A program made the position numbers and the translations under genes. A stretch of DNA of 64,000 nucleotides. Source: Modicisalibacter luteus DSM 23508. Its GTDB lineage: Bacteria > Pseudomonadota > Gammaproteobacteria > Pseudomonadales > Halomonadaceae. The stretch spans positions 1 to 64,000 of the forward strand of contig NZ_KB900006.1 in assembly GCF_000378505.1 (NCBI RefSeq), read 5' to 3'. This document shows, one piece after another, positions 49,013-52,770 of this stretch. Below the pieces are notes generated by a model. That model was not told where the DNA came from, searched no databases, and saw only the letters and a list, made by a program, of their open reading frames with translations. Position 1 is the stretch's first letter, and each line of letters begins with the position of its first letter.

Positions 49013-49123
49013 GAGGCGGCCCACCAGCCACATCCCGGCACACGCAGCCACCACTACCGTTGCTCCCTTCCGGGCCTGGCGGGGTTCGCGGTTTAGCGTT
49101 GCGGGAGGACCGATGGGCCACCA
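49013..49123 (-). ncRNA. ffs: Signal recognition particle RNA (4.5S)
   Basis: Minus strand contains the conserved SRP core, with CAGGCCCGGAAGGGAGCA as the apical loop region and GCGTGTGCCGGGATGT in the 3' arm. The ends pair (GGTGGCCCA with TGGGCCGCC), giving about 111 bases. It is placed just upstream of dnaX, as in many gammaproteobacteria. Confidence 0.95.
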
Positions 49124-49421: not shown

Positions 49422-50645
49422 ATGGACAAGGATCCGAACAAAGGCTACATCGCTATGCTCGGCTGGAGTCTCAACGCCATTGAGGCTCTAGAAAGGTTTG
49501 ATCGTCGCTACGTCATCGTGGCCCCCGACTGGGCACAGGAATATTGCGAACAACATAATATTCCTTATATTCCTTGGAATTTTGAGCGTCTCAATGACCG
49601 TTCAATGGAAATTGCCGAGACGCTAAAGGATATGCAAGTCGACGTTGCCATTCCGCTATTCGAGGAGACCGTAGAGTGGGCCGGCGCCATTAACTCGGTA
49701 CTCATGGACAATCCACGCCTGTATGGTCAGTCCATCCTGTTCCGCGACAAGGCATTGATGAAACGTCGTGCCCAGTTGGGCGGCATTCGTGTCGGCATCT
49801 TTGAGGAAGCTCATGATCGTGAGGATGTGGTGCGTTTCCTCAAACGCGTCAACCAGACCCTGCTCAAACTCGACGGCGATCCTAACGACCCGATTCACCT
49901 TAAAGCCTTCGACAAGGCGGGCTGTCTGGGACACCGTGTCATTCGCACCCCCGACGAGATCGACATGATTCCCGAGGAAGAGTTTCCTGTCTTGATGGAG
50001 AGTCACCTGGATGGGTGGGAATTCGCCGTCGAGGCTTGGATTCATGACGGCAAGATTCGCTTCCTCAACATTTCCGAGTACGTGACGCTGGGCTATTCGG
50101 TATTCGTTCCCGCCACCCCGGAGCTAGAGAAGTACCGTCCGCAGATCACGGCTCAGATCGAAAAGCTGATCAAGACGTTCGATATTCAGTTCGGCTTCAT
50201 CCATCCTGAATACTTCGTCACTAGCGATGGCGAAATGTACTTCGGCGAAGTCGCCTACCGGCCACCTGGATTCAAGGTCTTCGAACTCCTCGAGCGTGCC
50301 TATGGCTTCAACGCCTACCAGGCGATGGTATTGATGTTCGATCCCAAGACTACCGAGGAGGAGATCACCGCCTTCTTCCCGCGCGAAGTGGTCGATGCCA
50401 AGGGCTATGCAGGATGCTTCGGGGTCTACCCTCGGCGGCGTGTCGTCAGCCGACTGGAAATTCCCGAGGAAACCGAGCAGCACGAGTATTTCGAATCCCA
50501 CGAACTCACCACCCCCCTCGAGGAAACCGTCACCAAACGTACGGCCTTCGGAACACACTGGGGTCTGATATATTTCTTCGGTGACGAGCCGCACAAGATG
50601 CGCGATCTCCTCAAGCGTCAGGAAGAACTTGATTTCTATGTCTGA
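49422..50645 (+). CDS. ATP-grasp ligase, unknown substrate
   Basis: 407-residue cytosolic protein. N-terminal Rossmann-like pre-ATP-grasp region (1-100), then DKALMKRRAQLGGIRVG (109-125), the second ATP-binding Lys in HLKAFDKAGCLG (Lys161), a hinge-acid segment (Glu193, Glu204) and the metal site GFIHPEYF...EVAYRPPG (Glu263, Glu276, Arg280). This is the carboxylate-amine/peptide ligase pattern; the usual metal-ligand Asn two residues after Glu276 is Ala278. AGGAG is 7 bases before ATG 49422. It is followed after 24 bases by the papain-like protein gene. It probably forms an amide, but substrates are not known. Confidence 0.8.
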   Translation: MDKDPNKGYIAMLGWSLNAIEALERFDRRYVIVAPDWAQEYCEQHNIPYIPWNFERLNDRSMEIAETLKDMQVDVAIPLFEETVEWAGAINSVLMDNPRLYGQSILFRDKALMKRRAQLGGIRVGIFEEAHDREDVVRFLKRVNQTLLKLDGDPNDPIHLKAFDKAGCLGHRVIRTPDEIDMIPEEEFPVLMESHLDGWEFAVEAWIHDGKIRFLNISEYVTLGYSVFVPATPELEKYRPQITAQIEKLIKTFDIQFGFIHPEYFVTSDGEMYFGEVAYRPPGFKVFELLERAYGFNAYQAMVLMFDPKTTEEEITAFFPREVVDAKGYAGCFGVYPRRRVVSRLEIPEETEQHEYFESHELTTPLEETVTKRTAFGTHWGLIYFFGDEPHKMRDLLKRQEELDFYV

Positions 50646-50669
50646 CCATTGGTGAAAAAAGGAACCTGT

Positions 50670-52688
50670 TTGACTACCGAAGACCGTACCGACAGTGGGG
50701 GCGAGCTGCCCCCACTACTGGCCAAGCTGGACGATGCTGCACAAGCCCTGGCCCAGACCAGCTCATTCGCCAAGTCGCTCAAGAGCGGGCGTGTCCTGCA
50801 CGCAGCAAGGCGTGTGGTTATGGTCGAAGGTGGCTGCGAGGCTCTAGAAAGCCGCATGCCCTCGCTGGAAAGCGCCGGAATTTTCGAAGGTTCGGATTGG
50901 TCGCAGCCGCAAATTCTTTTGCCTGCCTTGGCCAAATACTCCCTTACAGCACCTGCGACCGAAACTGTCATGCTGGAAGCCTTGAGCGAACTGCGAATGC
51001 TGGCTGTCGCTCGGGGCAACTACATTCACCCCTCGATTTCACAACAGCAGGCCCACCATCACCTGACCCAGGTTCTTGCGCTTAACCTGGACCTTCTTTT
51101 CATGCCGCCCAGCGAGGCTGAGCGGACGCGCCAGGGCAGCCTGGCACTGCTGACTCGACGCTTGTTCCAGTATCTAGCCGATGGCATCGGCTACGAACAC
51201 ATCGTCGACAAGCTGATCGACGAGATCTGGCGCATCCTTGAGCAGCGTCCCATCCAGGTGGATGCCGTAAAGCAAATGATCCTGCAAATTGCCGCCTGCC
51301 AGGCTAACCCTGCCATCGAACTGGGTAGCAGTGGACAAGGAGCGGATCGCTTAATCAGCAGCCTGTTCGGGACAACCAACGGCTGTCGGGAGGATCCGGG
51401 GCTCGATACCTACCAGCAACGCCTCGAATCGATGGACAACGCGGCCCTGCAATACGAGGCCACCGGCTTTGCCCGGGCAATGCATGATACCGGCCTGGTC
51501 TCCCCCTATCACTCGCAGTTGATGCGTTTCTTGCTTGAACGGGGCGATCATTTGTTGAGCGAGGCCATGGGGCTCTCCAGCACCGGACGCGACTGCCTGC
51601 TGTGCTACCGGGAACTGGTACATGCCATGATCGACCTTGCCGTGCACCCACAGTCGCCACAGGCCATCTATGGCCTCGCTCTGTTGCTTGAGCGAGGCAT
51701 TCTCTACCAGCCTCCGGTCGCTCCCGCTCTGTGGCGCCAAGTCGCTCTGCCGCTATCCCCTTATTCGCAGCAACGCCTACATATCGCGTTCGGTGATACG
51801 CTCTCCCCTGCCGCTCGCCTCATGGAAGGCGTTCTGTGCATGCTCGGCCAGCCATTGGGTGTCGGCCAAGGCAACAACCCAACCTGCCAGTCAGCACGTG
51901 CATTGTCGATGTGGGCCTACAACGACCCCGACTATCTGCTGCAGATGGTGGCCTGGGCTGCACGAGACGATGAAATCATCATGCATTTCGAAGGTCAGCC
52001 AGTCTCATCACGGGAAAACCCCGATGGTGTCGCCAAGCAGCTACCTATCGATCTGGACCCAGTATCCCTGTTGGTGGTGCCACACCTAGATCGCATCTAT
52101 GCGGAAATGGGCCGGCGCTGTATCGGACGGGACGAGGATCCCCATCGCTGGATCAACCCGGAGTTCCATGGCTGGTGGGCCGGGCGCGGCTTCCGCATCG
52201 CCGTTGATATCGCCACCGGGCAATTGCATGGCCTCGATGACTTCCTGCGCTACTTTTATGCCAGTTATCATCCTTTCTATAACGGCAATCAGCCGTTGAT
52301 TCACCCACAACCGGCGGGCATCGCCATCACCGACAGCGCCGCCCGCTTTATCGGCTGGCATGCCATCACGCTGCTACGAGTCAGCCTTGACCCCCAGCAG
52401 GTCATGCGGATGTATTTCTTCAACCCCAATAACGACAGCGGTCAGGATTGGGGGGATGGGGTCGTCGTCAGCACCTCAGGCAATGGAGAACGTTTCGGCG
52501 AAGCTTCACTCCCCTTTGAGGACTTCGCTTCGCGCCTGTACATTTTCCACTATGATCCACTCGAACCCGGTACGCCCACGAACATCGACCCCCAAAGCAT
52601 CGAGACCGTAATTGGCAAGATCCAGCGAAGCTGGGGCGCCGACCGTCAACCACCCGGTGGATTGCAGGCAAGCACAGGCGAGACTTGA
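50670..52688 (+). CDS. Large protein with papain/calpain-like catalytic pattern
   Basis: 672 residues, no signal peptide or membrane segment. Residues ~1-380 are mostly helical, with no family recognised. From ~395 a papain-fold pattern appears: QGNNPTCQSARALS with Gln400 and Cys406 six residues apart (papain: Gln19, Cys25), GWHAITLLRV with His564, and YFFNPNN with Asn585, followed by DWGDG. Cys-His spacing of 158 is close to calpain (Cys105-His262). The frame opens at 50649, but TTG 50670 is chosen because AAGGA lies 6 bases ahead. Role unknown: peptidase, amidase or transferase acting with the ATP-grasp enzyme is inference. Confidence 0.7.
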   Translation: MTTEDRTDSGGELPPLLAKLDDAAQALAQTSSFAKSLKSGRVLHAARRVVMVEGGCEALESRMPSLESAGIFEGSDWSQPQILLPALAKYSLTAPATETVMLEALSELRMLAVARGNYIHPSISQQQAHHHLTQVLALNLDLLFMPPSEAERTRQGSLALLTRRLFQYLADGIGYEHIVDKLIDEIWRILEQRPIQVDAVKQMILQIAACQANPAIELGSSGQGADRLISSLFGTTNGCREDPGLDTYQQRLESMDNAALQYEATGFARAMHDTGLVSPYHSQLMRFLLERGDHLLSEAMGLSSTGRDCLLCYRELVHAMIDLAVHPQSPQAIYGLALLLERGILYQPPVAPALWRQVALPLSPYSQQRLHIAFGDTLSPAARLMEGVLCMLGQPLGVGQGNNPTCQSARALSMWAYNDPDYLLQMVAWAARDDEIIMHFEGQPVSSRENPDGVAKQLPIDLDPVSLLVVPHLDRIYAEMGRRCIGRDEDPHRWINPEFHGWWAGRGFRIAVDIATGQLHGLDDFLRYFYASYHPFYNGNQPLIHPQPAGIAITDSAARFIGWHAITLLRVSLDPQQVMRMYFFNPNNDSGQDWGDGVVVSTSGNGERFGEASLPFEDFASRLYIFHYDPLEPGTPTNIDPQSIETVIGKIQRSWGADRQPPGGLQASTGET

Positions 52689-52700
52689 GTCCCTAAACGT

Positions 52701-52734
52701 GAATCCCCCGATAGCTTGCGCTACCGGGGGATTC
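52701..52734. terminator. Hairpin between papain-like gene and tctA
   Basis: GAATCCCCCGATAGC/GCTACCGGGGGATTC with one mismatch and a 4-base loop, in the gap between convergent genes. Little T follows. Confidence 0.7.
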
Positions 52735-52770
52735 GCCTCGCAGGCCAGGCTAGCCGGCTCGACTACCGAC

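Follow-up and report, generated by a model that had tools for sequence, protein, structure and literature searches.

The 64,000-nucleotide stretch of Modicisalibacter luteus DSM 23508 analyzed here (contig NZ_KB900006.1, positions 1 to 64,000 of the forward strand; hereafter the window) contains two co-directional genes, p1 and p2, which encode a putative ATP-grasp ligase and a protein with a probable papain-like cysteine-enzyme domain, respectively (Table 1). The stop of p1 and the TTG start of p2 are separated by 24 bases, and the relatives of p2 start near this TTG. The two genes form an isolated unit, with genes on the minus strand on either side, which from their sequences we take to be dnaX (upstream) and a tctA-like gene (downstream). 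Both the open reading frames (ORFs) and these opposite-strand neighbors agree with the first-pass annotation, a model's reading of the letters, which had described an isolated unit of two co-directional genes 24 bases apart. Residues of p2 are numbered here from the mechanical ORF start at 50649, giving 679 residues, 7 more than from the TTG; Gln400, Cys406, His564, and Asn585 of that annotation are hence Gln407, Cys413, His571, and Asn592.

Table 1. Features of the p1-p2 locus (positions in the window; p2 residues in the 679-residue numbering).
Feature	Position	Strand	Basis
p1, putative ATP-grasp ligase, 407 aa	49422..50645	+	ORF list; PF13535, PRK07206 and L-amino acid ligase matches; residues kept in 118/118
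AAAAAGGA, ribosome-binding-like stretch just 5' of the TTG start	50655..50662	+	read from sequence
p2, helical N-terminal region and probable papain-like C-terminal domain	50670..52688	+	672 aa (679 from 50649)
p2 N-terminal region, predicted helical, residues 18-383	50700..51797	+	model; identities; weak ARM/HEAT-like matches
p2 C-terminal region, probable cysteine-enzyme domain, residues 384-655	51798..52613	+	alignment; models; papain-like fold matches
Gln407 codon (earlier Gln400), presumed oxyanion-hole Gln, 6 residues before Cys	51867..51869	+	130/130
Cys413 codon (earlier Cys406), presumed nucleophile	51885..51887	+	130/130
His571 codon (earlier His564)	52359..52361	+	130/130
Asn592 codon (earlier Asn585), within motif N-P-N-N	52422..52424	+	130/130
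Strong near-perfect hairpin 3' of p2, in the gap where p2 and the tctA-like gene converge	52699..52736	.	fold

We infer with good support that p1 is an ATP-grasp ligase that has kept its active-site residues. The Pfam scan gave PF13535 (ATP-grasp_4) over residues 190-278 (E 2.5e-5; 24.4 bits, cut-off 27) besides one chance-level match, and the NCBIfam scan gave PRK07206 over residues 59-319 (E 5e-7; 28.7 bits vs. a cut-off of 302), a model described only as a hypothetical protein, which we take to represent an ATP-grasp family. The solved relatives are the L-amino acid ligases 4wd3 and 3vot (BL00235), with E of 0.002 and 0.04 for the protein query and 0.003 and 0.011 for the profile query, respectively. 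With these ligases p1 shares the ATP-grasp core, the weak sequence match covering about residues 182-304, but it differs from them and from PF13535 in falling under the Pfam cut-off, in carrying Ala at the usual Asn site, in having a conserved C-terminal part, and in occurring together with p2. All 118 distinct sequences compared, that of the window among them, keep Lys110, Lys149, Lys161, Glu263, Glu276, Ala278, and Arg280, and identity is at least 76% across these ligase sequences. The invariant set includes the nucleotide Lys and the Mg-binding Glu residues of the ATP-grasp signature, and all four residues of the pattern first recognized in the window (Lys161, Glu263, Glu276, and Arg280). 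The replacement of the usual Asn by Ala278, also remarked on at that time, is equally invariant and is therefore a trait of the family rather than a sign of decay; PurK-type ATP-grasp enzymes likewise carry E-x-A-P-R. Among the family profiles tested, ATP-grasp was the only one that the pair matched. A second type of p1, 79-82% identical to the window's, occurs at loci L113, L119, L163, L166, L169, L177, L178, L179, L185, and L187, with a similar N-terminal extension of about 30 residues or more, ending ...GTETPKDPNKGYIAL.

A functional pairing of p1 and p2 is strongly supported by their distribution. In an order-level draw, p1 was present in 59 of 390 genomes and p2 in the same 59, none being discordant (M. 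luteus itself included), and in a phylum-wide draw each was present in the same 11 of 398 genomes. Both families were found in 30 of 58 near genomes, two more having only a weak p1 match (E about 1e-5), and p2 without p1 was not seen in any genome searched for both. Adjacency across genomes, named in the first-pass annotation as support for a pair, was confirmed as well: at 80 named loci, the best 80 of at least 585 confirmed, p1 adjoins p2 in 78, and the genomes of the two exceptions (L073 and L076) carry a further p1 at another place, with 80-81% identity to that of the window. By tblastn count, 51 of a further 53 stretches, which were picked for holding paralogues or distant members and are not a random sample, hold p2; it adjoins p1 in 27 and does not in 24, and the adjoining genes occur in three arrangements (p1 before p2 in 15, p2 before p1 in five, divergent in seven). 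In two genomes the genes are interrupted, perhaps through assembly error or decay: p1 and p2 are each read as two overlapping pieces in G004:C41, and in G022:C10 p1 is split in two and contains a stop.

The closest p2 relatives among the matches listed are those of Halomonas sp. McH1-25 (95%) and Modicisalibacter xianhensis (90%), and Halomonas and its kin make up most of the 80 named carriers. Marinobacter, Alcanivorax, Saccharospirillum, Oceanimonas, and others account for some of the remainder, and one carrier comes from a sheep-gut assembly. Most of these genera are halophilic or marine, as might be expected if p1 and p2 belonged to one stress or osmolyte route without sharing a bond, their co-occurrence then arising from the niche. 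Of 135 stretches 5' of p1, 33 contain a CTA[CTG][AG]CT box (100 single-base shuffles: mean 10.4, highest 21), which would point in the same direction, although the motif is weak, the orthologues and duplicate loci counted are not independent, and the window has no box. However, a niche alone would hardly yield 59 of 59 genomes without discordance, nor adjacency in three orientations, and we regard such a route as very improbable.

For p2, the first-pass annotation had proposed a papain- or calpain-like active site, of Gln, Cys, His, and Asn at the corresponding spacing, behind a helical region of about 380 residues. Every one of 130 distinct sequences, counting the window's own, indeed has Gln407, Cys413, His571, and Asn592, which excludes the lack of conservation in homologues that would have spoken against the site. 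The four residues occur in the order seen in clan CA, with Gln six residues before Cys. When residue identities were shuffled among the 131 p2 columns conserved at 98%, a Gln at that position relative to Cys arose in 1.3% of 200,000 permutations, and the Gln/Cys pair with His and Asn or Asp at papain-like spacing in 0.3% (p about 0.003, with spacing limits chosen in knowledge of the earlier claim). The N-terminal part of about 380 residues is predicted to be all-helical, and weak ARM/HEAT-like matches appeared there in the structural comparison. In the C-terminal part, where the model is of low confidence, a helix starts at the Cys, the His lies inside a strand and the Asn just past the next strand, and calpain and papain (C1) matches recur in the structural comparisons of both p2 models, as far as families among the matches listed are concerned. 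Residue conservation, spacing, the placement of secondary structure, and these recurring matches give moderate support to a papain-like fold and active site, which we consider likely.

Several results weigh against this assignment. The p2 models are of low confidence, and mean confidence became worse when the C-terminal domain was folded alone. Foldseek with the p2 models gave nothing at E <= 0.001 among the matches listed, and Pfam gave nothing significant for 68 and 37 p2 members, the most frequent weak match being DUF2891 (14 of the 68, best E 0.066). The calpain family PF00648 was not among the matches at E <= 10 for these members, in a search whose HMMER filters drop most weak matches, and there is none in the genome of the window. 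In a profile-profile comparison, hhalign of p2 against a calpain C2 profile built from six bacterial domains was not significant (P 0.11). The window's own p2 matched nothing in Pfam, NCBIfam, PHROG, or PADLOC, and the search of PDB sequences gave nothing significant. All this would be expected if the spacing of the four residues were coincidental and p2 were a helical scaffold, or another enzyme that needs the product of p1. However, such a coincidence is hard to reconcile with invariance in every sequence and the low permutation probability, with the secondary structure around the residues and with papain/calpain matches in both models, and we think it unlikely. Compared with calpain (C2, PF00648) and papain (C1), p2 shares the Q-x5-C, H-A, and N-P motifs, their order and the structural matches, but differs in its lack of a significant profile, Pfam or Foldseek match, in its helical N-terminal part, and in being probably cytoplasmic, no signal peptide being visible by eye.

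Our preferred explanation, to which we assign a probability of about 0.42, is that p1 and p2 form a dedicated cytoplasmic two-enzyme module that makes and cuts an amide. In this model, p1 would use ATP to convert a carboxylate into an acyl-phosphate and couple this to an amine, giving one conserved amide-linked product, which could be a dipeptide-like small metabolite or a protein bearing an added amino acid. The p2 protein would attack and hydrolyze the same amide through an acyl-enzyme, at a papain-like site formed by Cys413, His571, and Asn592 whose oxyanion hole contains Gln407, while the long helical N-terminal region of p2 may dock the substrate or a partner. The genes, their residues and invariance, their co-occurrence and their adjacency are observed directly for the pair; that p2 acts on the product of p1, and does so by cutting, we infer from linkage alone.

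The two proteins evolve at different rates. Median identity to the window is 86.7% for p1 (77 loci) and 72.2% for p2 (80 loci), and within p2 the N-terminal part is at 66.6% and the C-terminal part at 81.6% (80 loci each). At loci that also hold dnaX, p1 reaches 87.6% (16 loci), about the conservation of the DnaX core (89.2% for the N-terminal 360 residues, 17 loci), and the tctA-like neighbor exceeds both (90.6%, 15 loci); good conservation is therefore not peculiar to p1. This pattern, in which the ligase changes slowly and p2 joins a conserved catalytic half to a helical half that varies more freely, is consistent with a single conserved product or target, the copies of p2 then differing in what they dock. 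The p2 family has solo paralogues, and some genomes hold several p2, many away from p1 and with the four residues intact. The solo copies fetched are 51-61% identical, and paralogues of 51-57% identity without p1 alongside were recorded at L107-L112, L114, L115, L164, L168, L170-L172, L176, L180-L184, L186, and L188. One genome (G055) has five full-length p2 and a 59-residue fragment.

Both the rates and the paralogues, together with the constant presence of p1 where p2 occurs, would suit a transfer reaction too. In that case, p1 would supply a donor, in activated or amide-linked form, and p2 would be a papain-fold transferase (a transpeptidase or acyltransferase) that shifts the acyl portion onto proteins or small amines, its paralogues serving different acceptors of one p1 product. 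However, the sequence gives nothing to separate a hydrolase from a transferase, and in the survey of the 53 stretches (ORFs of at least 100 residues) no acceptor gene recurred next to the solo p2 copies; transfer in place of cutting is thus possible but somewhat doubtful. Another arrangement that co-occurrence and frequent adjacency might suggest is that p1 adds a residue to p2 itself, or that p2 cuts p1, in order to switch or mature the partner. We give this very little credence, since p1 is more conserved than p2, and a conserved common substrate fits better with solo p2 having diverged while p1 kept its identity.

Known systems offer partial parallels for a make-and-cut module. Glutathionylspermidine synthetase/amidase combines an ATP-grasp-type ligase and a cysteine amidase for one product, and is similar to p1 and p2 as a pairing of ligase and cysteine enzyme, but p1 and p2 are two separate genes with another cysteine domain; in the Pfam scan, neither GSP_synth nor CHAP matched p1 or p2 at E <= 10. 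Tubulin tyrosine ligase, an ATP-grasp enzyme, adds one amino acid that vasohibin, a papain/transglutaminase-like cysteine enzyme, removes, a comparison made by description and Pfam scan. This system differs in being eukaryotic, and the vasohibin triad is given as Cys-His-Ser (PMC4866520). By analogy, the pair might represent a bacterial reversible tagging cycle, in which p1 would attach a single amino acid or a short peptide to a cellular target that is conserved and widely shared, and a small papain-like p2 family, steered by variable helical halves, would remove the tag or pass it to different acceptors. A target of this sort would account for the conservation of p1 at about the level of the DnaX core, yet we consider a cycle of this kind a rather long shot. 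The pair is not named in any title or abstract start that searches aimed at such a pair gave in the open-licence literature, subscription papers being largely outside that scope.

Roughly 15% of the genomes drawn at order level (59 of 390) carry this strict pair, one of whose families has no matching Pfam model. Strict pairing and a ligase conserved like a core protein point to a fixed, useful chemistry beyond these annotation libraries, and, given the constant co-occurrence in the samples, deletion combined with metabolomics or proteomics could expose the shared bond in one experiment.

No third partner was apparent in surveys that covered neighboring ORFs of at least 80 or at least 100 residues: no family was present in more than 11 of the 53 fetched stretches, the top one being by eye a mixed ABC-transporter-like cluster, although greedy ORF picking sometimes took antisense ORFs (hiding p1 in L160). 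A presumed TlyA-like gene was considered as a third partner and rejected, since it is found in 52 of the 80 named loci and in none of the 53 others, and hence reflects local synteny. The box upstream of p1, present in L026, L029, L032, L042, L045, L068, and others, is in our view reminiscent of a stationary-phase -10 element. Downstream of p2, the region 52685-52760 folds at -35.4 kcal/mol (z -3.4); its hairpin has no T-run and no terminator-like match, and is therefore not a textbook terminator.

A role in a known anti-phage defense system was rejected, there being no PADLOC match at E <= 10, as was a viral or mobile origin, since neither the p2 protein nor an alignment profile found a relative in viral contigs, nor was there one in phages. 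The plasmid collection gave one match, to a large Halomonas replicon, that of Halomonas sp. PA16-9 (L120). This 1.83 Mb record, which bears the pair, was submitted as a plasmid but may be a second replicon of chromosome size. Finally, a bacterial small SRP RNA gene (RF00169, 74 bits) lies between dnaX and p1, at 49019-49115 on the minus strand.
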